Assembly: GCF_964355755.1 (NCBI RefSeq) | Contig: NC_092679.1 | Location: forward strand, 7,874,001-7,938,000 | Direction of reading: 5' to 3' | Length of the DNA stretch: 64,000 nucleotides | Source of the DNA: Antedon mediterranea | Lineage: Eukaryota; Echinodermata; Crinoidea; Comatulida; Antedonidae | Shown here: positions 17,399 through 52,800 of the stretch, piece by piece | Layout: each line of letters opens with the position of its first letter | Numbering within the stretch: position 1 is the stretch's first letter | Notes under the pieces: generated by a model | Seen by the model: only the letters and a program-made list of their open reading frames with translations | What the model was told of the DNA's origin: nothing | The model's database searches: none | Position numbers and translations under genes: made by a program

Positions 17399-20300
17399 TT
17401 AAGAGGAAGAGGGGATAAGAGAATCGATTGATTCTCCCTTTTCCAATGCCTTTTCCATGTTGATAATGGTTTGTACACCATCAATAACGCACTGGACTTG
17501 TTGTACCTCTGAGCTTCCAAGACGGTCCAAGTTCGATATGTCGTAAACGCCTCCAACAGATTCTGTGAACTCTCCGCCTAAGCAAAGAAAAACAAAAATA
17601 GTGAAATGTACCGGGTGACATACAATTTCTTGATTTTTACTTTCTTTCTTTCTTGCTGTCATTTCCTAAGCTTGGTTCTTGTGGACGCAACAAGAGGATG
17701 GACGTGGAAAACAAAGTACTTTTGACCAATCGCCGCAAGCTGGATCATCCCAACTATCGTTTGTGATTGGTCAACTCACTTGCGTTGGGCTTACGTCCTT
17801 GTGCTGCGTCCTAGTTGGAACCAAGCTTGACACCTTACCGCAAACGATGTATTATCTATAATTAGAAAAAAACTTAAAACTCACTTGTTCCACGTTTCTG
17901 CAACCTCATAGCTGTACAGATGGATTCAAAGCGACTGTCCTTAGCTAGGTATGGTACTTTAACATGTACACTGCAGCGTACTCCAGTACCAAGGTTAGAT
18001 GGGCACGTCAAAATAAAACCTAAATGCTCGTTCCACATAAAACCTGTTCCCTTAGATTTGATGTGCTTCTCTACCTGGTAATAGAAATAATAAGCGTATG
18101 TTATAAGTGGTACAATATTTATATTGTATGATCGTTATTTGCATGCATTACGACGAGAGAAATTAGTCGTATTTTGTATGTGCGCGTCCTCCTGATTGAA
18201 CGTCTAACGTTAATTCTCAGCCTAATGCAGTATTTGAATATAAGGTGATATTCTGTTTAGGCTACCGTACGCCTAAACGTCGACATCCTTATAACATGGT
18301 GTTATCTTACCTCGGTTAATCCAGTACAGAAACGAGTGAAAACTCTCTTCATGTTGCCTCCCATCTCCATGGAGATGATTCGCGTGTGATCTTCTTCATT
18401 AATCCAAACAAGAAAGTTCTTTACGTCATTATGCCTGAAAGGAGATACGCTACTAATTAAGCTAGAAATACATCGTCGCTCTTTTTAAGAGCTCTTTGTG
18501 CATCTTAAAACGTACTTGTTCCCACTATTGCAACGCAAATGCAAGGACGCAACGCAATGCAAGGACGTACGTAGACGCAACGCAAGCAAGTTGACCAATG
18601 GCAAACGACAGTTCAGACAAAATAACTTATAACTTACAGTGATTGTTCAAATCGTTGCGCTTACGTCATTGCGTTTCGTCTTATAGTGGGAACCAAACTC
18701 AAATCGTTAACGATACCAAAGATAGTGTAGTACTACTACACTATCTTTGACGATACTTAATAACTTACACGCATCTATTAAGTTGTTAAGTTTGTACATG
18801 TAAAATTTATTTTAAAACGTATTCCTAAAACACTAACAAAAAAAAGGCTTACCAGATACCACGTCCATCGGGGAAATCACGGGCCATGCCACCGCTAGTA
18901 AAATGACGAGACACTGGTCTGTCAAATAAGAAATGGTCATCGATTAGTTGCTGCTGGTCTTTTTCATTGAGGGTCAGCAGTGAATAGTATTTGCCTTTGA
19001 ACTCGCCTCCCAAAGAATTCAAAGCTGAAAATAGAAAAATAAAATATTGCAATCCATTTCCTATGTTATATAGTATTAGTATCGGTACGAATATCATCAT
19101 GAAAATATATAAATTAATAATACCATGGAGAAAATATATAGAATTTCCTTCATGATAATACAAATTCAATATAGAGTGTGGTATTATTACGGTACCTTCA
19201 ACAACAGTCTTCTCAATTCGTCGTCTCTCAGATCGACAGACGAACGGTGAGAGACAGTATCCCTTGACGTTACGTCCAGTACGAATACGTGAACTAATAA
19301 CGTACTTAGGGTCCAACTCATCAGGGCCAGTGAGTTTGCTTGGGTCCAAATCGGTCTTGTGATTGTCTGAAGATGAGAAACATTATGTTTTACTTTATCA
19401 TAATAAGTACAGGTCAACAGAATTCTATTCAATGATGTATAAAAAATGAATATCATTTTTTTTATACCAAAATATTTATAACCAGGAAACAAACTGTTTT
19501 TCTGAATTTCATTTCTTTATTAGCCATAAAATAAATCTCTGTCTACACTATTACACTTTATGTGAATAAAGATATGATGTGCCCAAATTTTGGATGCTCA
19601 TAAATGTTCGATTTTAAAATCGTAACATAATTTAATATTATCATGAATTATATGAATGTTCATTTTTTAATTATTTTATGATAGCAGCCGGTTTAGGAAC
19701 ATGAACATCTCATTAAGGATGTACGGACGATTTGTAGCTATATTTGTAAACGACCTTTAGTCTTCCTCAGAATTATCATTACTATTCAATCACGTGATAT
19801 AAGAAATCTAACATAATATATGAGAGTGCGAGCAGACATTTACATCTACTTATTTTTAAACGATCGTATACCGTTCGATTAATCTTTTATGCAGAAACCC
19901 AAGTATCAGAAGTCAATAATTATTATAATTATATTCTTTTTTTTATCATCATCATAATAATCAAATTGCCATCATTTCCATTAACACTTTCATTCTGAAT
20001 AAATATCACCATTAAAATGTTGTTTTTTTATCTGATCCCATCACATATAATCACGGAGAACGTCATCATAATCAACCGTCGTCATCATCAATATCCCCTA
20101 GATCATCATCATCACTATTATAATGACCCCTGTCATGTTTATGCCAGAGGTGATGACGTAAACGTTGTGCTACATAATTAAATCCATTCTCAGATAGCTC
20201 ATTATAATATGAAATTTGAGATCCCGAGTTCGGGTGTTTTGATTGCTCTGTGATGCGGAATTACACGAGTGACGTTCCATACTACATTTTGTATCTTTTT

Positions 20301-26474: not shown

Positions 26475-27264
26475 CATTACGCGGACCAGGCTACGTTAGC
26501 GTTACGGTTAGGCAATTTGGTTTTGACAAGCAATTACTGTCAGTGCTTTGTAAGTTATTGTGATTTTATTGCCCTGGAGTGTCATTTGAGCCACAAGTTC
26601 TAACTACAAGTCCTGCCCACTGGAGGTTGGTCTAACCTGAGATGATTCGCATGGAAGAGCTTGAGTCATTCTCTTAAGTTTGGCCTCGATGACCTTTGCG
26701 CAGGCTACCTAGAATTCTCATGGGCCATTAAATATTCAGTTTCAACTTTTAGATTTTATGTGGTTTGAGACTTTGTTGAGCATTTTTAAAAATGTGTATA
26801 GGCCTACTACAGTACATAATATTAATATTTAATCAAAGATAAGAACAATAATGCAATATACATTGAGATATAAATGATGTAAAATAAACCATAAAGATTA
26901 ATACAATAAACTACAAATAGCCAATTTTTAAGTTTTAATGGAAAAAAATGATTGACCTATGAAAGAACCCTAAAATAAACATATAAACAAAAATAAACGC
27001 CAAGTGATGATAACCAATTTAAATTAATACACATTCAAAAGTTTTATCATCATGTAAATAATTATCTTAAATTAAAAATGAAAGATATATTTAGGTTAAC
27101 AAATTGAATATAATATGTTTCCTTTTTTCTTATCACTCTTGAAAAGTAATGTTATCTGTTATCTGCCAGAGTCACATGTTCTGACCCTTTCCTTCATTTG
27201 TTTAGCTCTGTTGATGAATACTCTGATACTTTTTTTCGTAAAATGCTACAAATAAGTGTGTATG

Positions 27265-28311
27265 TTTTTTACCCTGCCACTGTTTTAGTACAACACAATT
27301 TTGTGTACCCTGCCACTGTTTTGTATCCCTGCCACCGTTTTTGTATCCCTGCAATCTTATTTTTTCACAGAAACTTTGTATACAACACAAGTTTTTGTAT
27401 CCTAGATCATTGTTTTGTACCCTGACACCGTTTTTGTTCCCTGCTACTGTTTTTGTACCCTGCCACCGTTTTTGTACCCTGCTACTGTTTTTGTACCATG
27501 CCCCAGTTTTTGTACCCAGCTGCCATCGTGTTTGTACCCTGCCACTGTTTTTGTACCCTGCCACTGTTTTTATACCCTGCCACCGTTTTTGTACCCTGCG
27601 ACTGTTTTTGTACCCTCCCACCGTTTTTTTATCCTGCCACCGTTTTTGTATCCCTGCCACCGTTTTTGTACCACTGTCATCGTCTTTTTTCCCAGACACT
27701 TTGTATACAACACAAGTTTTTGTACCATAGACCACTGCTTGTCATACCCTGTCTCTGTTTTTGTACCCTGATACCGTTTTTGTACCATGTCACCGTTTTT
27801 GTACCCTGCCACTATTTTTGTACCTTGCCACTGTTTTTGTACCCATCTGCCATCGTTTTTGTACCCTGCCACCGTTTTTGTACCCAGCTGCCATCGATTT
27901 TGTACTGCCACCGTTTTTGTACCCTGCCACTTTTTTGTACCCTGCCACCGTTTTTGTACCCTGCCACTGTTTATGTACCCTGCGACTGTTTTTGTACCCA
28001 GCTGCCATCGTTTTTGTACCCTGCCATCGTTTTTGTACCCTGCCACCGTTTTTGTACCCTGCCACCGTTTTTGTACCCTGCCACCGTTTTTGTATCCTGC
28101 CACCGTTTTTGTACCCTGCCACTGTTTTTGTACCGAGCTGCTATCGTTTTTATACCCTGCCACCGTTTTTGTACCCTCCACTGTTTTTGTACCCTGCTCA
28201 TTTTTTGTACCCAACTGCCATCAATGTTGTACCCTGCCACTGTTTTTGTACCCTGCCACTTTTTTTGTACCCAGCTGCCATCGTTTTTGTACCCTGCCAC
28301 TGTTTGTACCC
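27265..28311. repeat. 19-bp-period minisatellite, block 1
   Basis: Tandem copies of TTTTTGTACCCTGCCACCG with variants (CCACTG, CCATCG). Longer 22-bp units carry CAGCTGCCATCG. Two interruptions contain ACTTTGTATACAACACAAG (27373 and 27698), showing a higher-order duplication of about 325 bp. Because the unit has no stop in any frame, long open frames arise on both strands (up to 298 codons). They are repeat artefacts. Confidence 0.95.
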
Positions 28312-28486
28312 TTCTACCAGGGCCTTCCAGCCTTTTAAACACTGCCTGACATACAAAGATATTTTAAGTCATTTTGTGAAAAATATACATTTATTTAGTT
28401 TAATGGAATATCACAACCACTAAGTATTTATTCCTGTATAAGGTCAGCAATCAGATTTCCCGCGAACTATTGTATAAAATTAGTGA

Positions 28487-29104
28487 CGCTGTTTTTGTAC
28501 ACTGCCACCGTTTTTGTACCCTGCCACCGTTTTTGTACCCTGCCACTGTTTTTGTACCCAGCTGCCATCGTTTTTGTACTCTGCCATCGTTTTTGTACCC
28601 TGCCACCGTTTTTGTACCCTGCCACCGATTTTGTACCCTGCCACCGTTTTTGTACCCTGCCATCGATGTTGTACCCTGCCACTTTTTTTGTACCCAGCTG
28701 CCATCGTTTTTGTACCCTGCCACCGTTTTTGTACCCTTCCACTATTTTTGTACCCTGCCACTGTTTTTGTACCCATCTGCCATCGTTTTTGTACCCTGCC
28801 ACCGTTTTTGTACGCTGCCACTGTTTTTGTACCCTGTTACTGTTTTTGTACCCAGCTGCCATCTATTTTGTACCCTGTCACCTTTTTTGTACCCTGCCAC
28901 TGTTTTTGTACCCTGCTACTGTTTTTGTACCTTGCTACTGTTGTTGTACCCTGCTACTGTTTTTGTACCCTGCTACTGTTTTTGTACCCAGCTGCCATCG
29001 ATTTTGTACCCTGCCACCGTTTTTGTACCCTGTCGCTGTTTGTGTACCCTGCCACTGTTTTTATACCCTGCCACCATTTTTGTACCCAGTCAATGTTTTT
29101 GTAC
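28487..29104. repeat. 19-bp-period minisatellite, block 2
   Basis: The same unit as block 1, resuming after a 175-bp interruption (28312-28486). The interruption includes a 65-bp sequence repeated at 31341-31412. About thirty units, again with periodic CAGCTGCCATCG variants. Confidence 0.95.
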
Positions 29105-34346: not shown

Positions 34347-36185
34347 CTATAATGTTGTTGAATTTGATTCATCAAAATGTCTAATGAGTTCTCTGTTTTT
34401 GGTTAACTGTCGGCGAAGGTCCTTTCTTCCTTCCAAAGAAAGGTACCGTACCTCACAGTTTGGCAGCGCTGTCCTTAAAGTGTTCAACACACTTTCAATA
34501 TCCCTGACAGCTGGCAGATCACACAGGAAAATGTATTGCAGTTTGCTGTGTGAAAATGACATATAACATTATTCAAAGAGCATAATAATAATATATCAAT
34601 ATTATCAACTATCATGAAGCAAAAATGGATTAAGTTCGATCCATCGATAGAAGAACTCACCATAGCTTACAGAGTGATGCAATGCCCTTGTCCGATACAT
34701 CTCCACAACTGGTCACTTGAATATCTTCCAAACTATCTTTTAATATTTCTAGTTTGTCCATACTTTCATCTGTGATGTACGTTGCATGGTGCAGTTTCAG
34801 AGATCTCATCTTCTCCAGTCCTCCTGTAAAAATAACAATAACCAATTAGGACTAACTAATACTAATTTTGTAAGTTATAAAGGAAATTGAAAATTATAAA
34901 GACAAAAGACAAAACCATTATGCCAATGAAAAACCATTAATTATCAAACTCTATGTGACAAAAAAATGTTTTGAAAAAGAATTTTTTTCTTACTGAAATG
35001 GTCAAAGCCAATATGCATGATGCTGGAGTCAGTGGCATCAACAGCCTCAATCCGATAGCGATCCTTTGCTCCAGTTGGCAATGAGTTATAATCATCATTC
35101 CATTTCTCATAACCACTGAATTTGACTGCTGCACCACAACGCAGCAACCACTCAGCTGCAGCCCTGTCTGGTCCTACTTCATTTACTCTGTTCTGATCGA
35201 ACCTAGGAAGAAAGAAAAGTTTCAAGTGAGTTTGTCAGCTTTGCTTATCTTTAAAGGAACTGGAAATTAAGTTCTGAACTTAATTAAATCCAATCTTTTG
35301 CATTGTAATGTTTTTTAATTTAAGGGGAAGGCTGCACCCTCCTCCATCATTGTTTCCACCAATGGGAATTCTTATCAAAAGCTCTCTTTGTCAATAGACA
35401 CAAATTTAATTTTAGTTTATCCTTCTATTCCTTAATCCATGCACTAACTCATTTAAAATACAATCTCACTTGTTAAATATGGAGTTGAGCATTCCCCATA
35501 AACACCGTTGTGATGACAACCTAAACAACCCATTACATGATGACAATATTACGTTTGCACCATATTTTGTTGTCATCTATGAAATAAGTAAAACATTATA
35601 TTAGTAGCTATACTAACTGTTGAACAAAATTACAATAGCATGATTACAGTGTATTACTATCTAGGCCTACATTAGTATTTACTAATCTATCCTAAAAAAA
35701 AAATAAATATAGGCATATCATCAACATTTCGCTTTAATAAAAAAACACTTTATTTAAGTATTCAAACTTAAGTTAAACTGATAGTAGTAGTATGTCTAAA
35801 TGATTAGCCTCTACAGCAGCCATTCCATACTACTGAATAAAGTTGTACTACAGTACTAACTAAATATCCAGGCAGGTCAGAAGAGGAAAGAGCATACTAG
35901 CGGATGCTACAGTAGTCAAGCTAGTCGACTTTGATTGGGGGGACTTGACTCGATCCCAGCCAGGCTGACCAGGCGCGCCGAGCCGAGGCCTAGCTAGCCT
36001 AGCCTGGCTAAGGCCTACATACAACATAAATAGGTAACCATACAAGTTAAATTTCATTGCATATAACTAAGTTACCAATTAGGTAATGAATGCAATAATG
36101 CAAACAAATTTCCTACCATAGGCCTAGATACATATTAAATTTAACAAAATAATTCCCTTACAAAAAATCTACTGGATAGCGCCAT
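34347..36185 (-). CDS. DMAC2L: DMAC2L / ATP synthase subunit s-like LRR protein (5 exons)
   Basis: Mitochondrial leucine-rich-repeat protein (formerly ATP5S, coupling factor B) linked to ATP synthase and respiratory complex assembly. Exons in transcript order: 36185-36162, 35576-35470, 35202-34994, 34823-34661, 34545-34347; 233 aa. The tiny first exon encodes MALSSRFF. With the basic, Ser-rich start of exon 2 it makes a plausible mitochondrial presequence. Conserved blocks are CLWGMLNSIFNK, VGPDRAAAEWLLRCGA, LPTG, IEAVDATDSSIM, IGFDHF, then LRR-like LEDIQVTSCGDVSDKGI and LQYIFLCDLPAVRD. The exon 1 start is less sure than the rest: exon 2 opens with its own ATG directly after the acceptor. A GC-poor 390-bp gap separates it head-to-head from the Rab gene. 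Confidence 0.9.
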
Positions 36186-36574: not shown

Positions 36575-39500
36575 ATGTCGCATGAACAAATGAATATCGA
36601 AGAGCATTTGTACAAGATTCTTGTAATTGGAGAATTTGGCGTTGGTAAGTTGAACGAGACCTCTCCAGTGTCTCAGTCTCATCAATCAATCATCATGATG
36701 GGGAGTGGAGGAAGGTCAAACAAGCATGTTTAATCGCGGTACACACATTTGGACTCGGTATCAAACTGTAAGATAAAGGAAGGCTAACCCTGCACTTTTA
36801 TTTCCGGTATTCATTTACAGAATGCTGTTAGTCTTAGCAAATAATACTAGGCCTGTTAAGGCCCATTTACACTAGGACGATGACAAAATAAACAAATAAT
36901 ATGCATTGTTCATACATAAAATAAAATTAATTTAGGCCTGTATTTTGAATAATGTTGCAAAGCCAGAGAAAATCTCTGTACATAATATTTAAATCCAATT
37001 TCTACCTTGATTTTGCTGGTACAGTATTTAGCTTAGCTTAAATTAACTCAAATGAATGGTATGATCATGAAATGTCTAATTTTTTGTGTATAAGTCTAAG
37101 AATTTTGATTACTTACTTTGTTCTCTTTTCTTGCAGGAAAGGTAGGAGTCTAAAAAATAATATTGATTGGTTTGTTAAAATGAAATTCAGGAAATGGCAG
37201 AACTGGAGTTTGGTAACAAGAAGATAATGATGGAAAAATAACACTTTATAAATAATAATGCAAATAATCATTGTTTGTTAGTTTAAAACATTCTCTAGAA
37301 AATGGCAAAATCATTATTAATAATGATTAATTAACAGTTTGTTAAATTATGGCAATCGTGAAATAAAAAATATATTCACATTAAAATTAAGTATTGATAC
37401 TGATAGCGTTACATATTTGTCCATAGACACTCAGTATTCTACATTAGAGTTACATGTTTGTCTATAGACACTTATACAACTATATAGACAGATTTTCTAA
37501 ATACTAGAGCAATTGTCACCAACATGGAACATGTTAATGTTTAATTAATATTTTCTTTTAACTATACAGACATCAATTATAAAACGATACACTGAAGGTA
37601 AGTTTCATGTTGGTTTTTCCAATTAATAACAAAACTACATGTGTTTTTATGCACTTAATGTACACAGATTGAACTTTCATATGATCTATATTATTTCCTT
37701 ATTTACCAGTTAAGCCGGAAATGATGACCAAACACTGGAAGCAATGTGTTTTTTAATATCATCAAAACAAAAACTTCCTAATAATAAAAAATATTGATTT
37801 CCCAATCCATGAATCTTTCCATTTGCTTTTATTTAGGTACATTTTCTCCAAATTATAAACTTACTATTGGAGTTGATTTTGCTTTGAAATCTATTAATTG
37901 GAATGATGCAACCAAAATTAACTTACAGTTATGGTAAGTGTATTAATTGAGTAGTAAGTACAGTATACTCAAGTAGATCATAAAGATGATGATGTTATTC
38001 AGGTTATAATAACCTTTGATCTTTACTATTTCTAGGGACATAGCTGGACATGAAAGATTTGGTCACATGACCAGAGTTTATTATAAATATGCGTAAGTAA
38101 AAATAACAAAGTTCTTTAATTAAATAAATCATATTTTGTTGTCTATTCTACTGCCACGATCATACAGGTATATAAATCTCTTTTTTATCCAAAAATAAAG
38201 TATTCTAGAATATGTGACATAATTATACATTTCCTTATAAATTTTGATAATTTTCTTGCAGAATTGCAGCAATTATAGTCTATGATTTATCAAGGTAAGT
38301 GTGTTTAATATGTAAAGAATATTTGTCTAAAAATATAAGACCCTGGCAGACTTTCAATTAAAATAAAACAGATGGTATACTGTATGTAGCATTTCATAAC
38401 ATATATTAGATACTTTAATGTAAGCTGTTATAACTACCTGCTACAGTATTCTATTTGTATAACCTCTGAATGTTTACTGATCACCCCCTCCCCACACCCA
38501 ACAACAAAAATAATGTTTCCTTTTATTACAGACCGGCCACATTTGAGTCTGTCTTAAAAGTGAGTTAATTTTTTTTAAATAAAGTTGAAAGAAGTTCTAA
38601 AAATATATTGTACAGTACCTGGTGTCACAATATAATGTTGATGATATGATGTAATTGTTGTTTTTACTACAGTGGTATACAGATGTTAACCAAAAGGTGA
38701 TGTTAGCAAATGAACAACCAGTACCTATACTACTAATAGCAAATAAGGTATATTTACAATTATCCATTCAATATTAATATGCCATGAACAACTATGTACA
38801 AGTTTAAATAGACTATCATGTATGATTTTATATAGACAGTTTAAAACCATTAATTGTATTATGTCTACTTCTATGTTTAAATAGAGGCGCTATCATGTAT
38901 GAGTTTAAATAGACAGTTTAAAACCATTGATACATAGTATAGGCTGCCTCCTCTCATAGACTTTATGTGTGTTGTCTGTTTACCAATTATATTATTACTG
39001 TATTTACTGATGTGTTTCAATATCGTAGAGTGACCTTCACACAAGTCCTTTGGATGAAGCATCTTTAGATGAGTTTTGTAAGCAGCATAAGTTTGTTGGC
39101 TGGTTCAGCACTTCTGCCAAAGATGACAAGAATATAGGTAACTACATAAACAAATATAAACTGCATAAGCATATCTTTTTTGTATATTTACCAGTTAAAG
39201 GTCAAAGTTCACCCATAAATCCCTATGGGCAATAACTATTGTACCTGTAAAAATGTGCCTATGCATATATTAATAGTAAGATAGTTGCTTACCATACTGA
39301 ATAAATAATGGCTTATATCCATATGGATTTACCTCAGTCAAACTGTATGCAGTTATTTTAAATAATCAGCAAAGCCCCTACTTTAATGGGGGCGCTGGTG
39401 ATTGTTAAAACATACTGTTTCCCAATTTTTTGCATTTTATGGTTAAGTGTCCCTTGATGCTTGAGGCTTTTGTTGATACATATCTTTTTTTATTTCATTA

Positions 39501-39808
39501 AAATTTATGTGTTTATATGTAGTGGTTAAAACCCTATGTAATAAATGTTCATGGGAAAAATTCCATCCCTAAATGACTCATATCACAAATATCAAACATT
39601 TCACCCAAATTAGTTGATTTATTTCTGTCTTCTCAATACGTTGTTTTCAGATAAAGCAATGCACTTCCTAGTAGAAACAATATTATCTTTAACTAGCGAT
39701 GGACAAAAACCAGAGGAACATATTTCATTACAGCAGCCAGATACAAACTATCTACAAACAATAGATGAAGAGGAATTTAAAGAAACTAGTTGCTGTGGAA
39801 AAAATTGA
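36575..39808 (+). CDS. Rab32/38/29-family small GTPase (10 exons, one of 5 nt)
   Basis: Vesicle-traffic GTPase of the Rab32 group, which serves lysosome-related organelles and mitochondria-associated membranes. Exons: 36575-36644, 37137-37141, 37570-37597, 37837-37933, 38036-38092, 38262-38294, 38532-38559, 38673-38747, 39029-39137, 39651-39808; 219 aa. The P loop GEFGVGKT is at 19-26, followed by TSIIKRY, switch I TIGVDFALK, switch II WDIAGHERFG, NKSD in place of NKCD, and TSAKD. The C-terminus ETSCCGKN supplies a double-cysteine prenylation site. The 5-nt exon 2 (GAAAG) encodes the end of G24 and K25 of the P loop. Residue 72, Gln in nearly all Rabs, is His here. AATAAA near 40249 is a candidate poly(A) signal. 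Confidence 0.92.
37137..37141 (+). other. 5-nt microexon
   Basis: TTCTTGCAG|GAAAG|GTAGGA. The five bases are needed to join ...GGC GTT G to ACA TCA ATT in frame and to restore GVGKTS. Skipping it shifts frame and removes the P-loop lysine. Confidence 0.85.
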
Positions 39809-40856: not shown

Positions 40857-43800
40857 AGGTAGAAATAAATATGCTAAAGCTGAATTTTTCAGGATAGGTC
40901 CCTAATGTTGTCTGAAACAACATACTAAAAGTCCCCGGGTTTTCCCGTTGTGCTTCAACCCGATTGGGCCATTTTTCAAAATGGCGGCCATCTTAAAATT
41001 ATTTACCATATGCTGACAACCAGTAGGTGTAAGTAAACAATCTTGGTGTCAAAATACTCAGAAGACCCATATTTATATTCACTGTAATGAAAAAGTTTAA
41101 CAAAAAATGGTCAGAAATGCCTGTTTTGACCTTTGACCATAAATTTGGATTATCTCAATATCTCAACGACTGGCCGTAGAGACTTCAAAGTTGTCCCAAA
41201 TTATTCAGAATGCCCAACTTTCTATTCACTTTAATGAAAGGAAAATAACAAATTCCTTTAGAAACCTTCTATTTTGACCTTTGAACTATTGACCTTTGAA
41301 CTATTGACCTAGACATTATAGACATCTTGGTGATCGATAGGAGTACACAAGCGAAATTGGTGTCAAAATACTCAGAAGACCCATATTTATATTCATTATA
41401 ATGGAAAAGTTTTTTAAAAAATGACCGGAAATGCATGTTTTGAACTTTGACCCTAAATTTGGATTATCTCAATATCTCATCAACGACTGGCCGTAGAGAC
41501 TTCAAAGTTGTCCCAAATTATTCGGAATGCCCAACTTTCTATTCATTTTAATGAAAGAAAAATATCAAATTCCTTTAGAAACCTTCTATTTTGACCTTTG
41601 AACCCTTGATCTGGTCATATTTTATACCAAAATTGTATAGAAATCTTGGTGATCGATAGGAATACATAAGGGAATTTGGTGTCAAAATACTCCAAAACAC
41701 CCATGTTTCTGTTTACTCTTATAGAAATAATGTACTAAATGCGATTGTAAGTGTTTTGACCTTTGACCTTAATCATTACATTTTAATGAGAATTAGTCTA
41801 TTTCGTGCCTAGCTTACCTGTATAAACCGACAATAGCCTGTGTTCTCCAGAGGGAGGGCTTAGATGCAAAAAGTTAAATTTAAGTTGACATAAAGATAGA
41901 CAGAATCTAAAAATTCATCAGTATGGCCATTGCCATGAGAGGTAAAATTCATTCCAAATTGTTCAGATGCTAAACAGACAAACCAAGCCCTAATTTAAAA
42001 CTATATATATATATGATACATTTTACTGTCTGTTTGGGCTTTAGCCTATTTTCACTTCTTTTATTCATTAGTAACCAAACAAATTTTATTATTTATTTAT
42101 TCTTGAAATATTAGGTTAGAAATTAGTCCTCCAAAAAATGCCACGCCTTCTCTATATGGCTAATGTCCATGTTTAAACTTTAGAGCTACACCAATTCTGA
42201 AATGTTTCCTCTTCGGCAGTGCCATTTAATATAGCAGAGACCACTAATGGTTGATTTGACACACACTTATTGATAAAATTGTGTTTTTTTTTCAATTGAG
42301 CTGCACTATTACATTTCTTTGTGTATATAGGTCTGGAGTACATAATTCATCTTATAACATTTTTTAAATTGTCTAAAACTGCACACTGTACATAGTCACC
42401 CACCCAACCATTTATCAAGGTCTCAGTCTAAGTCTCATTTTAGGCTCTAGTCATACCTCCGATTCTTATCTGATATGATGCAATTTAATTTTAAAAGAAT
42501 TACTGTATTGCATTTATCTTTAAGATGTGAACATTTTTTTCTGTTTTTTTTCTAATCAAATTCTCTAAAAATCGAAAATACTTCAGGACTATATGATGGT
42601 TAATAAAATAAGGGCATGGAAACCCCCTGTTGAAGACCATAACAACTTTACAGTGACAATTTCTTTATAATCCATCTTGATAGATAGATAGTTTCATATT
42701 GTATTTTATTATTTAGGTGATTTGTCAAATGACACTGTCATTGTGACCCTTTGATACCTGAAATTATGGCCTCATATCTATATTGATGAATATTATTATT
42801 CGTCCATCGGACCTTTTTTCTAGGCTGTTTCGGATAAATTTGACATCTCATGGCATGATGAATGGTATGATATGTCCATCATGCTATTTGGGACTTAAAT
42901 TATTAAATTATAATGTAGTGATTAAAGTCAAAGGTAAAAAAACATGGGTGTTTTGGAATATTTTGACAACAAATTCGCTTATGTATTCCTATCGATCACC
43001 AAGATTTCTATATAATTATGATATAAAATACTGTATTGGCCAGATCAATAGTTCAAATGGCAAAATAGGTGGTTTCTAAAGGCTTTTAGTATTTTTCTTT
43101 AACTACAGTGAATAGAGTTGGGCACACTGCTTAATTTAGGACAATTTTGAAGTCTCTACGGCCAGCAGTTGATGCGGTATTGAGATAACCCAAATTTAGG
43201 GTCAAAGTTATAAATTTTGAAACCAATTTCGTATCCTATCGATCACCAAGATGTCTATAAAAATAAATATGCCTACATCAATAGTTCAAAGGTCAAAATA
43301 GAAGGTTTCTAAAGGTTTTTGGTATTTTTCTTTCATTAAAGTAAATAGAAAGTTGGGCATTCCGAATAATTTGGGACAACTTTGAAGTCTCTACGGCCAG
43401 TCGTTGATGAGATATTGAGATACTTCAAATTTAGGGTCAAAGTTAAAAACATGCATTTCCGGTCATTTTTTTAAAAACTTTTCCATTATAATGAATATAA
43501 ATATGGGTCTTCTGAGTATTTTGACACCAATTTCGCTTATGTACTCCTGTCGATCACCAAGATGTCTATAAAATTAAAATATGCTTAGGTCAATAGTTCA
43601 AAGGTCAGAATAGAAGGTTTCTAGGGCATTCTGAATAATTTGGGACAATTTTGAACTCTCTACGGCCAGTCGTTGATGAGATATTGAGATAATCCAAATT
43701 TATGGTCTAAGGTCAAAACAGGCATTTCCGGTCATTTTTTTAAAAACTTCTCCATTACAGTGAATATAAATATTGGTCTTCTGAGTATTTTGACACCAAA

Positions 43801-43985
43801 ATTGTTTACTTACACCTACTGGTTGTCAAAATATGGTAAATAATGTTAAGATGGCCGCCATTTTGAAAAATGGCCCAATCAGGTTGAAGCACAACGGGGA
43901 AACCCGGGGACTTTTAGTATGTTGTTCCAGACAACATTGGGGACCTATCCTGAAAAATTCAGCTTTAGCATATTTATTTCTACCT
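40857..43985. mobile_element. 3.1-kb foldback element with internal tandem repeats
   Basis: Two arms of about 0.94-1.1 kb (40857-41795 and 42890-43985) are near-perfect inverted copies, starting AGGTAGAAATAAATATGC. Each arm contains GGCCATTTTTCAAAATGGCGGCCAT. Each also has two to three copies of a 270-290-bp module with AAGTTGTCCCAAATTATTC, CTTGGTGATCGATAGGA and GGTGTCAAAATACTC. The roughly 1.1-kb centre is AT-rich and without a gene. No transposase is present. The right end is only 355 bp upstream of the L3HYPDH start codon. Confidence 0.9.
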
Positions 43986-44339
43986 TTGGCCCTTACTAAC
44001 AGTAATAACCTTGAATATGTAATCCCATTGCCACATGGCAAGTTAGACATCGCCCTCTGGAGGCATTTTTTTTTACAACCAACACCAGATCATTCTTGTC
44101 TAACTAAATACTGTATAACTGAACCAAGGCAATTTAAAGTAAAGGTAGGTTATGCATAAGTACCAAAACAACTTCTTCATGAATTGTCATGCAATGGATT
44201 TGATAACAAAATAAAAGCATAAAATATAAATCTGCAGACCAATTATACTATACACAGACAGCTTATGAAATTGTCCTAATCATAATGTCTCAGGTATTAT
44301 GAAAATAATATTTGTGATTCTTGTTTTATAGGATTCAAC
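43986..44339. promoter_or_regulatory. L3HYPDH upstream region
   Basis: Between the foldback element and the start codon. A TTTTATAG acceptor directly precedes GATTCAACATG, so an untranslated first exon probably lies here or further upstream. Confidence 0.4.
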
Positions 44340-45816
44340 ATGAGTTGGACACTCAGCCAGTCATTTTTATCATATTCATCACCTGTGATCAAAACTATTG
44401 AAATGCATACAGGCGGGGAACCCCTGCGTGTTATAATTTCAGGATATCCTAAAATCCATGGAGATACAATTCTACAAAAAAGACGGTATGCGAAAAACAA
44501 TCTGGATCATTTGCGAAAGATGCTTATGTTTGAGCCTCGAGGTCACAATGATATGTATGGTGCAGTACTTGTAGATACTGATCTTCCAGGAGCCGACATA
44601 GCAGTGCTATTCATGCATAATGGGGGATACAGTACTATGTGTGGACATGCTATAATAGCACTTGGCCGCTTAGTTGTAGATAAAAAGTATGTAACAGCAA
44701 CAGAGCCTGAAACTGAAGTCAACATTCAATGTCCTTGCGGACTGGTCAAAACCGTAGTTGAGTACAAGGATGGCAAGTCAGGATATGTCCGATTTCATAG
44801 TGTTCCAGCATTTCTATTTGCTTCAAGTAAGCTATCTCAGGACTATAGGTCTTCATGATTCATCTGGTCCCTCCATGAAAAGATCTTTCTCGCAATGCTG
44901 GTTGAATAGAAACTGAGGAATTAAGTACCTAGATCTGTCCAATAAGCCTACATTATGCAAACTCTCCACAAAGTAGCTTAACATATTAAAGATCATACTC
45001 TATTATGAAAATAATGTACATCGTTATATTTTTCAAAATATTTCCATTTTTAGATGTCGAGATAAAAGTTAAAGGCTACGGAATGATGACGGTAGACATC
45101 AGTTATGGTGGCGCTTTCTATGCCTTCATAAGTGCTGACGTTTTAGGATTAGATGTCAGAAGGTCAAGTACGAGTGACCTAAAAAAAACAGCTACTGCAG
45201 TATCTGATGCTGTTAAAGAGCAAGTGAAGATTCTCCATCCTGGAGATGATGACTTAAGTTTTCTCTATGGTACTATTCTAACAGATGGTCAAGACAATTG
45301 GTCAGCGGACCCAACAGCCAATGTCTGTGTGTTTGCAGATGCTCAGGTAACCATACTTAGTACTCGTAGGAGGTACTTAAACTGAAGTTTTCCCTTTTTT
45401 GTTGTTCTGCTTAAAAGTCTACTTCTAGACTTATTGTGACCACCATCCACATTTATAAATATTAAATAATAATTAAAAATTATTTGTGGAAATTAATAAG
45501 CAACAAGTAATTAATATGGTTGAAATATTTAAAACCATATTTTTAATTTCAGGTTGATAGATCTCCAACAGGGTCTGGTGTTACTGCAAGAATTGCACTA
45601 CAACATGCTAAAGGCTTTATACAAATCGGCCAGAAACGAATATTTGAAAGTGGCGTAACTAAAAGTTTGTTTTCAGGAACTGCTATCAAGCAAGTAAAAT
45701 GTAATGATTTTGATGCCGTTGTTGTGGAGGTGTCAGGTCAGGGACATTATACCGGAGAGGCGAGTTTTATTCTTGAGGAAGGGGACATTGTTGGTGAAGG
45801 ATTTCTACCAAACTAA
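44340..45816 (+). CDS. L3HYPDH: L3HYPDH, trans-3-hydroxy-L-proline dehydratase (3 exons)
   Basis: Proline-racemase-fold enzyme that dehydrates trans-3-hydroxy-L-proline, derived from collagen, to pyrroline-2-carboxylate. Exons: 44340-44826, 45054-45346, 45553-45816; 347 aa. Markers are EMHTGGEPLR, LMFEPRGHNDMYGA, STMCGHAIIALGR with the catalytic C101, IQCPCGLVKT, YGGAFYAF, LYGTILTDG and CVFADAQVDRSPTGSGVTARIALQ. The second active-site position is T266 (SPTGSG), not Cys. This is what distinguishes the dehydratase from proline and hydroxyproline racemases and epimerases. The chosen ATG gives a start about as long as in vertebrates. Confidence 0.94.
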
Positions 45817-46828: not shown

Positions 46829-49800
46829 ATGAAACATATATTAGAAATAAATGACCGTGAAGCATTGAGGTATGTTATTTCCAGAGAGCTGAAGAATTAT
46901 GGATTGAAAGTTCCTAAAGAAAAGAAATCGAGCAGCAATAATTGCGTGTGTAAAGTTCACACGCAAGAGGTAAGGCCAACCAATATTTGTCGCTCGACGC
47001 TGATAAAAATAAGTCGGATGTTGCTGGGCTAGAGCCTAGCCTAGCTAAGTTGATAAATTGTCTTGCGCTTGGGAGAGAGCCACCATCTAGCCTTATGCAA
47101 CATTTTATCAGTCTGATTATTATCACAAGGAATGTAATCCTTGTTTTGTCCCTTGCTTGAAGAACTAACATTAACAAAACTAACTTAACTGCTCAAGTTG
47201 AGTGGGACTGAACTGAGAGTGTTCATCGAGGCTAGGCTGTTATGCGCGATTTGAACGATTTGCGCAATTTGAAATTGCGCAAAAAAAATCCTTGCGCAAT
47301 TTGAATTGAAACATGTGTTTCAAATTGCGCAAGCAACGTATTAAATTGCGCAAGTAATCTGCAAATTGCGCAAGGTTTTTCGACAGATTGTGAAATCATG
47401 CACATCCATATTTTTATAGTAATTTCTAAGAATGATTCAAAATTAAAGATAAATATCGCATTTCCTTATTTTAGTAGTGCAAATATTGTTATAAGTTAGC
47501 ATACCGTCGAAGAACCGACGAAGGAAAACGAAGCGGTGGTGTTCCACCAGGCGGGCGCGGGCGGCCGGCTATACTACTCTAGCCTAGCTAGGGTCTGGAC
47601 TACTGATACTGACTAGGTTACATGGCCTAGCTTAAACTAATATTAAAAACTTAATTTTTACATTTATTTTGATTTATTTCAAGTTACAGTGATAATATTA
47701 TTTAATTGTAATAATAAATGTTATGTATTTATTATACACATGTTATCTTCGCATTTATTATGTTTTATTTTGAGTTATTTAGTTTCCAATAAATTATTAT
47801 AATACCGATTGTCTGGTAGAATTTTGTTGCGCAATTTGAAAATTTACAGGTTGTTTTCAAATTGCGCAAAGGTGTCATATTGCGCAAGAACTATCTTGCG
47901 CAATTTACAAATTGTGCAGCGCAATTTAAAATTGCGCAAAGATTTTCTTGCGCAATTTGAAATTGCGCAAGTTGATTGCGCAATTTCAAATTGCGCAAAA
48001 AAATCCTTGCGCAATTTTAAATTGCGCAAGAATTCTTTGCGCAATTTCAAATTGCGCAAGGATTTTTTTGCGCAATTTCAAATTGCGCAAATCGTTCAAA
48101 TCGCGCATAACATAGGCTACTCTTCTTGTAAATTAATTTAATTCTTATTTACAGGAGTTGTGCACATTTGGTTGCCCATTGGGCTGTCTTCCATCAATTT
48201 CAGTTGATGATGCATCTGCTCACACCGTCCCAAGGTAATGCACTTGTCAATTGTATGACCCACTATATGACCCCTGGGAGAGGTGCGTCATGGGTGCGTC
48301 ATTTACAAATAATTACTGACGCAGGTGTGCGTCAAAAAACCTAGATGGTACGTCACATCAATGAACAAGGTGTGTCAATGTCCGTCACTTTACCACCCAC
48401 CATATCATAAACAACATGGTCACAGTGCGTCAAAATGGGTGCGTCATGGTCACCTAAAGGTAAGTCACCTTTTTGACGCACGGGTGCGTCATGGTATTCA
48501 AAAGTATGACGCACATCGGAAAAATGACGCACCTCTCCCGGGGGTCGTATACTGGGTCATACAATTGACAAGTGCATAAGAACATGATGATATGTATTAA
48601 GTGAGATTATTGGTGTTATGGTTCAGTGATTTTGTTTGATTTTTTGATAATGGAATAGCCCATGGGGGATGGGAACCCTGCTGGACACCCAAGCCTAGAG
48701 AGCTGTATCCAAGGAGACATCTTTCTCTTTGGCCTGCGTGACTGGCAGGGAGAGGTGTGTTCTCCTTGCTAATAAAGCAAATAATAAATGCTAGAATTTG
48801 TAATTAAAACTGCTATAAACTGAGCCTGTTTTGCTTGCCTGTTTTGCTTGCCTGTTTATATTCCAATAAATGTTTGTTGTGAGATCAAATCAAGACGATT
48901 TACCTGGTACAGTATCATTATTGTTGCACGTGTCAACCGCAATCCCACACAAGTTAGGGAGGCCGGAGCCTTTTACATTGGAAAACATTTTAACGTTTAT
49001 ATTCTTGCGTGTTGGAGATTATTTTTAATGTTATCTTAAAATAATATGATAGTGTCATTGTATTATTTTTCTCTTTTAGATACTTAGTTGAATGTGTTGA
49101 GTTTCTTAAATTACATTTGAATTTAGAGGGTTTATTTCGTAAACCAGGATCAAGAGTAAGGCAAAAGGAACTAAAGGTAGGTTTTAAAAATGAGAAGAAA
49201 AAATTTAAAATATAAACCTGTCGTACTTAAAACTTGATGGCATGGTCATCTTGTCCGTGACTGTAAAGGCTCAATGTTTACTAGTGGAAGTACAGTTGGC
49301 CTAGGAGTGAGTGTAGTTATAAACTGAATTTAAAGAGATTGCACCTTTTCTACCTCTTGAATTCTTCAAATATCATAATTTCCACTTAACAGTTCAATTA
49401 TTTTCAGAATAATAATACATAAAAATGTGTTTACCATTAATCGCGGAGTTGAATCGTGGCAATAACAAGGTCAGAGTCAACTCTCGGTAACCCTAGTTTA
49501 AGACAATGTCATGAACACTGACCTGCATTATACTTTGTTTTTGTAGAAGCATATCAAATTAACCAATTGATTTAATTCAATATTTCTTTGTAGCAAATTA
49601 TCCTTAATACTGGGTCAGTTCCTCAAGATTCACATTGTGCTGATGTTGCAAGTCTTCTGAAGGAGTTCTTTAGAGAACTTCCAGATCCTCTCTTTACCCA
49701 CAAGCTCCAGGAAACCTTCCTGAAATGTGGCCAGCTGGAAGAGGAATGGAAGCAGAAGAATGCCATCCTTCTGTTGGTGACTATTCTACCAGAAAGTCAT

Positions 49801-52800
49801 TTCCATACTTTACTTTATCTTATGAGCTTCTTAAACGACGTAGCAGCACATTCTGAAAATAACAAGATGAATGTTAGAAATATTGCGTTAGTTCTTACTC
49901 CAAATTTAATCGGTCTTAATGAGAAGCAAGAGAAGAGCTCAACATTGTCGGAGAAGATCTTAAGAATCTTTATGTCTGTGATCGCCCTTCTCATTCAGCA
50001 AGCTAATCGGATTGGCTTTGTTTCTGAGACTCTTGCAGAGAAAATTAATAACTGTGCTAATAAATCGTGGAGCGCAGTTGATGGTGGGTTGACGTCTGAA
50101 GATGATTTGGATTGCAGTGCAGAGGCAATTCTTGATGCAGAGAAAGTAATAAAAAAGAAAAGGAGAAGAAGTGGCTCACTACAAGGTATTCATATTATTT
50201 CACTCTATTTATTATTTTATTCACAACATAGAATCAACTTTGCACATTTCTATTTGGTATTCTTAAACCGACGCCGAGAGAGGTGCAATTGCAATTGAAA
50301 AAAATAATTATGCACTTGTCAATTGTATGACCAACTATACGACCCCCGGGAGAGGTGCGTCATTTGTCCTATGTCTGTCGTACCTTATGAATACCATGAC
50401 GCACCCGTGCATAAAAAATGTGACTTGCCTTTAGGTCACCATGATACACCTATTTTTACGCATTGTGACCATGTTGTTTATGATATGGTGTGTGGTAAAG
50501 TGTGGGACACACCATTGTTCATTGATGTGACGTACCATCTAGGTTTTTTTACGCATCTCTGCATCAGTAATTATTTGTAAATGTAATTACTTTATAAATG
50601 ATGTTTATTTTCATTTTATAATTTGTTTCATGTTTTCATTTATTATATTTAGCACCATAAGAATTGTTGCTGGTACACTAAAACAGTATGTTCAGACCAA
50701 CAGTGTGAAGCATGTTAATCTATTGTGGAAAATACACCCATGTTTATATGGGGAGGGGTCCTCAATTTTCCCCCAGAATAAATGATGATACTAGGTCAAG
50801 ATATGATCCTTTTGCTTTGCAAATAAACGTTTTCACCTCAGAACCACATCCAGAGCAGAATGTATGCATAAAGCTGTTGGTCTGAATATCCTATTTGCAC
50901 TTGTTGTCACAATTCATATTGCAGAAGCTGTGAACAGTCTTGGAACACTTCTAGCATCTCCATTTGTCACTAGTAATCATTATAACATAGGTATGACATC
51001 ACACATTGTCACTAACCATTATCCATATACCCTGCATCACTAATGTTTAATCATATCAGGTATTAGATGATCAGTAGAATTTTTACTACTAGACTACAGA
51101 ATAAATGTATATTTCATAAGAACTTTATACTGTATGTGTTATGTATGGAACAGCCTTACAATTACACACACAAAAAAAAATACTATTTAAAAGTTAATAT
51201 CCAGTTTTGTGTAACAGTAAAATCATCTAATATTTTGGCATTATGGCTGGGCAGTTCCAGTATTAATTTCTTTCCATTATATTAAACTGAATTCATATTA
51301 ATTATAAACATGAATCTCTACTATTGTAGTTCTTACTCCTTCACGTAATCATCAAGGAGTTTATGAAACACCCAAGATAATGAGATCAAAGCGTAAGGCA
51401 AGTGAAGATAGTGGTGCATTTACTTCTGCTAAAAGGTGGGCTCTTGTTTCTTTTGAATTCTGAAATATTTTAGCTTTTAACAAATAATTTGATCTATGAA
51501 GAGTCTAGTATAAATGAGTTCTATTTTCAACAGGAAAGCTTTATTAAAGCAATTGCCAGCTGATCAGAGGTTTAGTAAGCATAGAGCTTGTGTTGACACG
51601 ATTCAAACCACACCAGGAGGATATGAAGGACCCCCTCTAGGTGAAGTTGGTAAGTAAACTGAACACTACAGCATATTATCCGTAATTGCACATGTTTAAA
51701 TATAGATCCAAACAAGTTGGCGCCCTCTATAATCACAATGATATTCCCTAAAAACAGACAGACATTTAATTAAAGAAAGTGTTTTTTTGGGCACCAAATT
51801 TATTTGGAAAATGTTCAATTGCATCTTAAGCACCTGCTAAGATACATCAATGATATTTTCCAGATATTGTCATTTTTCTTTTGATGCTTAGATGACATCT
51901 CTAGATTTGTGAGAGATTACTGTACCAGGCAGTGGTTGTCCATAAACTGCACAAAAAAAATGTGTAGGATTTGCCATACTTAAATAAAGACTAACTAGAT
52001 TTGAATTTAACTACATAGAAGGAATGATTATTAATTATAATTAATTCAATTGATTGTTTTAATTAAACAATATCTTCAACAACGTCTTTTATACAGTAAC
52101 CATATATGCATTTAAGCTTGTCTGTATATTTAGCATGAGTGAAAATAGCTTTCACTGTGTCACAATTGGCATTCTCCTTCATTTGCAAAATCCATAAAAT
52201 CTAACAAAACAATTCCTCTTCAGACTTATGAACTTTTTTTTTAATTTGAAAAGGTCAACATATTTAAACAATTAAATAAATGTTGTGTAAAATAAAAAAT
52301 AACAGTCAACTAAACCGTTTACAATGCCAATACCGTCAACTTAGCTTATTGAACGATTTTGATCAATGCTATGCTGTTTGTACAATTGTTGTGTAATGCA
52401 GTCTACTGTAGACTAACGCCCGTATTCTTAAACCGGACTTTAGTCGTAGTTCGAGCTAAAACTAAAAAAATGACGTCATTTTAATTCATAAACCAAACTT
52501 CAACTAAATCACCGACTAAATCAGGCCAACCTCGACTAAATCGAGACGGATTTTGATCGATTTTTTTAGTCCTGGAGGGGGCAGGCTAAATGGTCGACTA
52601 AATGGTTTTTAAACGATGTTTATAAAAAACGTAACAGTCATTGAGTTGTTATATTGGCCAGATATTGAAGAATGAAATATCTATATTTATATTACCGTAG
52701 CTTAATTAAATATACATTAGTATAAGTTATAATAATGAAAATCAACTTTATTTACAACTGTATACAAATTACATTATTTTCTTCGCGCAAGTCCGACTTG

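Follow-up and report, generated by a model that had tools for sequence, protein, structure and literature searches.

The pentanucleotide GAAAG at positions 37137-37141 of the window (the whole 64,000-nt stretch of Antedon mediterranea DNA that was analysed) very probably represents a genuine 5-nt coding exon that is constitutively included in the transcripts of a Rab32LO (Rab32B) gene. It would be included in essentially all transcripts, with mis-spliced products being removed by decay.

The gene was rebuilt from the window. Its full 10-exon chain formed an open reading frame, and all introns were of the GT-AG type, with lengths of 102-513 nt. No Rfam structure was found within the gene. All bit scores given below derive from a generic splice-site matrix, which was based on general human frequencies and not trained on A. 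mediterranea. The reconstructed gene comprised the following features:

36575-39808, + strand: whole Rab gene; 10 coding exons, 660 nt with stop, 219 amino acids
36575-36644, + strand: coding exon 1, 70 nt, with phase 1 at its end; MSHEQMNIEEHLYKILVIGEFGV + G; 8.3-bit donor gtaagt
36645-37136, + strand: intron 1, 492 nt; tract TTTGTTCTCTTTTCTTGCAG; candidate branch points of the yUnAy type, TTGAT (A at -29) and CTTAC (A at -22)
37137-37141, + strand: microexon GAAAG (exon 2), 5 nt; supplies the Lys codon and the rest of the Gly codon in the P-loop GEFGVGKT
37142-37569, + strand: intron 2, 428 nt; donor gtagga; weak exon 3 acceptor, 4.9 bits
37570-37597, + strand: coding exon 3, 28 nt; TSIIKRYTE + G; starts ag^ACA TCA
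37837-37933, + strand: coding exon 4, 97 nt; contains switch I as well as the FALK stretch (TIGVDFALK)
38036-38092, + strand: coding exon 5, 57 nt; switch II DIAGHERFGHMTR
38262-38294, + strand: coding exon 6, 33 nt
38532-38559, + strand: coding exon 7, 28 nt
38673-38747, + strand: coding exon 8, 75 nt; ends ...LLIANK
39029-39137, + strand: coding exon 9, 109 nt; SDL... TSAKDDKNI
39651-39808, + strand: coding exon 10, 158 nt including the stop; encodes the C-terminal ETSCCGKN, with putative prenylation cysteines

In its genomic context, the microexon reads tactttgttctcttttcttgcag^GAAAG^gtaggagtct, with exon bounds at exactly 37137-37141. Exon 1 ends with GGA GAA TTT GGC GTT G^gtaagt, and the spliced junction, GTT G-GA AAG-ACA TCA, is translated as V G K T S. 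To this junction, the microexon contributes the last two bases of the Gly codon and the complete Lys codon, so that two introns are situated 5 bases apart within the codons of the P-loop (...GTT G^GA AAG^ACA...). Reading of the sequence and reconstruction of the gene confirmed that the first-pass annotation had placed GAAAG exactly, and the translated junction bore out its proposal that this exon codes for Gly-Lys in the P-loop of a Rab. The spliced sequence across exons 1-3 is GEFGVGKTSIIKRY. Predicted junction k-mers are GGCGTTGGAAAGACATCA with GAAAG included and GGCGTTGACATCAATT with GAAAG skipped.

The acceptor of the microexon scored 15.1 bits, the highest value among the 3,124 AGs on the + strand of the window, and exceeded the next-best acceptor in the gene by 7 bits. 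No AG on either strand of nine other loci from the same genome matched this score. Acceptor positions -20 to -5 (TTTGTTCTCTTTTCTT) represent the richest tract of the gene, with T at 12 and a pyrimidine at 15 of 16 positions. The donor, AAG^gtagga, is canonical and, at 8.7 bits, ranked fourth among the nine donors of the gene. Both sites are good, as had been claimed. In human cells, stronger splice sites compensate for the shortness of constitutive microexons, and in 96% of these a motif of the U2AF type lies 10-20 nt upstream (PMC4317164). The GAAAG exon showed sequence features of this constitutive type (flanking AG and GT, strong sites with a U-rich tract, and necessity for both frame and motif). 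Its strong acceptor and 5-nt length differ from the weak sites and lengths divisible by three of regulated, neuronal-type microexons. That the shortest exon of the gene carries by far the strongest acceptor makes it a natural example of splice-signal compensation.

Exons this small are thought to be unable to accommodate the factors of the 3' and 5' splice sites next to each other, and GAAAG would be too short for ordinary exon definition. The exceptionally strong branch point, polypyrimidine tract and AG upstream of it may make up for this shortness. In the proposed order of events, the donor of exon 1 would probably pair first with the acceptor of the microexon, which should be preferred over the weak exon 3 acceptor because of its higher score (15.1 versus 4.9 bits). 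This first splice would yield a 75-nt composite exon, consisting of exon 1 and GAAAG, whose 8.7-bit donor would then be joined to exon 3.

Mis-splicing of this region was predicted to be destructive. Skipping of the microexon shifts the frame, as noted in the first-pass annotation, and the exon 1-3 product (...GEFGVDINYKTIH-stop) continues from GEFGV with DINYKTIH, eight codons that are followed by a premature stop. If intron 2 is retained, the product is GKVGV-stop; if intron 1 is retained, translation ends 28 codons past a lysine that is encoded by chance in the first bases of that intron. Since skipping of the exon and retention of either intron all lead to a stop, inclusion of GAAAG is obligatory for formation of the protein. 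It had also been suggested that the exon acts as an on/off splicing switch, in which tissue- or stage-specific skipping, frameshift and nonsense-mediated decay would turn the Rab off. The skipped product, ...GVDINYKTIH-stop with several junctions downstream, would indeed constitute a clean off state. However, almost any out-of-frame exon gives the same formal 'off' when skipped, and the stops are therefore no sign of regulation. In a mouse survey, the strongest sites occurred in constitutively included clusters, and regulated microexons of animals, including neuronal ones, are weaker-sited and mostly in frame (PMC7821500; PMC4317164). The strongest acceptor of the window, a tract with 15 pyrimidines in 16 positions and a length of 3n+2 consequently speak against a switch, no sequence feature points towards regulation, and a regulated exon is considered very unlikely. 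A profile search for PF15230 (SRRM_C), directed at SRRM4/eMIC-type regulators of tissue-specific inclusion, gave no match in the genome, with a control that was also silent.

Judged by its sequence, the gene is a member of the Rab32LO (Rab32B) class, based on the FALK stretch and the class-specific DIAGHERFGHMTR. The spliced protein aligned with the entire Ras domain in Pfam (PF00071, 140.6 bits) and is a full-length Ras-domain protein. Its best matches among solved structures were human Rab32, Rab38, and Rab7L1 (Rab29), with E-values from 1e-67 to 1e-53 and the next match at 4e-32. In the alignment with human Rab32 (PDB 5oed_B; E 1e-67), the P-loop was free of gaps. Switch II contains DIAGHERF, with a His where the catalytic Gln usually stands, a feature of the Rab32LO class. 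This arrangement refines the earlier description of the P-loop lysine as 'catalytic': its location in the microexon was correct, but the lysine binds nucleotide phosphates and the catalytic position is that of the switch II Gln. Substitutions of Ras Q61 provide an analogue for loss of this Gln, and by that analogy intrinsic GTP hydrolysis by the Rab32LO protein may be weak. An extension of this reasoning, in which the 5-nt P-loop exon would be ancient and conserved in Rab32LO, and its inclusion would set the Rab level, with splicing and decay replacing weak GTP hydrolysis as off control, is a speculation to which we give very little credence.

Alternative ways of linking exons 1 and 3 were searched for by combining all GT donors near the end of exon 1, AG/GT pairs enclosing an exon of at most 250 nt, and acceptors near exon 3. 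Solutions were retained if the frame stayed open and G....GK[ST] was preserved, and the search was exhaustive for zero or one intermediate exon. Six formal solutions were found, among which GAAAG alone had good sites (8.3, 15.1, and 8.7 bits); the remaining five all required a donor of -5.9 bits at 36649. In chains of one or two intermediate exons with sites of at least -2 bits, G....GKTSIIKRY was obtained from the GAAAG exon alone. The claim that GAAAG is the only in-frame link that keeps the GKT/S motif thus holds in the sense that it is the sole solution with credible splice sites. The pattern AG-GNAAR-GT occurred once in the 925-nt interval from exon 1 to exon 3. Upon dinucleotide shuffling, any such site arose by chance in 4.4% of cases, and one with an acceptor and donor of at least 5 bits in 0.05%; none of 4,000 shuffles reached 15 and 8 bits.

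These results also bear on two further explanations. Gly-Lys might be supplied by another junction, for example by extension of exon 1 to GGTAA^ (donor 36649) and use of a 1-nt exon, G, at 37448. This route is the only other formal solution that yields the exact GVGKTSIIKRY, and the resulting protein would be identical. Its -5.9-bit donor, however, lies 4 bases from the 8.3-bit donor, and its acceptor (1.7 bits) and second donor (-3.6 bits) are poor substitutes for those of GAAAG, which makes this route extremely improbable. Hardly any weight is given, likewise, to a protein that truly lacks Gly-Lys, as a non-binding pseudo-GTPase or the product of a decaying gene, with the GAAAG sandwich as a coincidence: the Ras superfamily does include pseudo-GTPases, but locus-specific support is lacking, direct joining of exons 1 and 3 causes a frameshift and a stop, all other exons are open and well conserved, and a site of such quality was absent from the 4,000 shuffles. 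No processed (spliced) copy of the Rab gene that would show the junction was present in the genome. A search for mitochondrial COX1, through whose genetic code the assignment to echinoderms could have been examined, gave no match and hence no mitochondrial contig.

The 5-nt exon was further compared with the P-loops of related genes in the same genome. A Rab32/38 gene (C1, L013; GDLGVGKTSVIKRYVHQFFSQHYRAT^IGVDFALK), with switch II GQERFGNMTR, encodes the P-loop within one exon, and a second FALK-class gene, probably Rab29/7L1 (C9, L014), also has an unsplit P-loop exon. Because the P-loops of both paralogs are unsplit, Rab32LO is the only gene of this FALK-class set with the two introns in its P-loop. 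A Rab35-like gene (L015, C3:34265500-34275000) has a P-loop intron too, at a different place, near GDS^GVGKSS.

Rab32LO, earlier named Rab32B, is a class that was lost in tunicates and vertebrates (PMC4728774). As described for this class, the A. mediterranea protein has FALK after switch I, a DIAGxERFGxMTR switch II with two His, in agreement with the published consensus (DIAGHERFGHMTR, 38036-38092), and a P-loop of the GExxxGKT form (PMC4728774). The main text of that study mentions no microexon, and its intron analysis dealt with Rab32/38. Linkage to Tim9, reported for Rab32LO in sea urchin and amphioxus (PMC4728774), was not seen here: PF02953 (Tim9) gave no match near the window, and the nearest was on C10, ~13.8 Mb off. 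The neighbourhood of the Rab gene in the window contained the following:

18852-19382, - strand: ATP:guanido phosphotransferase exon
27263-29104: minisatellite, ~95 copies of a 19-nt repeat, TGTTTTTGTACCCTGCCAC, showing higher-order periodicity at 79 and 117; long open frames on both strands, apparently spurious
34500-35205, - strand: exons of a gene oriented head-to-head to the Rab gene, similar on visual inspection to ATP synthase coupling factor B/DMAC2L; no Pfam match for the exon tested
40857-43985: ~3.1-kb fold-back-like element immediately downstream of the Rab gene; its inverted arms are long and imperfect (outer 314 nt, 94% complementary; inner 307 nt, 95%)
44286-45382, + strand: proline racemase family exon, probable trans-3-hydroxyproline dehydratase
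49594-50295, + strand: RhoGAP domain exon

An annotation without GAAAG would lose or break the P-loop, so that an intact Rab could be mistaken for a pseudogene or a pseudo-GTPase. Should the exon prove to be shared by other animals, an age could be given to two introns 5 bases apart in one of biology's most conserved motifs. A partial literature search found no report of a microexon in a GTPase P-loop, its single hit being an unrelated root-hair transcriptome of Arabidopsis, and nothing on the Rab32LO gene was evident from titles and abstracts of the sea urchin and amphioxus microexon literature. Drosophila Ubx microexons are alternatively spliced. They have been cited as 5 nt long (PMC8042270) and, like GAAAG, are small internal exons in an animal, although the signs here favour constitutive inclusion. 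The first-pass annotation fairly described constitutive exons this short as rare, yet such exons are documented. Human MPC1 contains a constitutive 4-nt microexon, for whose inclusion 67 bp of upstream and 6 bp of downstream sequence suffice (PMC9929638), Arabidopsis APC11 has a 1-nt exon (PMC4674806), and RT-PCR has verified an exon of 5 nt in rice (PMC8831610). In kind, GAAAG is therefore ordinary; distinctive are its position in a nucleotide-binding motif and the contrast between shortest exon and strongest acceptor. With the plant microexons of 1-15 nt, such as those of APC11 and rice, it shares the status of an ultra-short coding exon of the sort that annotation often misses, although those occur in plants and in other genes. 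The MPC1 exon resembles it in being very short, in having a length that is no multiple of 3, and in its constitutive inclusion, which depends on a strong proximal 3' splice-site region; the two belong to different genes without a relation by descent, and inclusion, shown experimentally for MPC1, is predicted for the Rab32LO gene.
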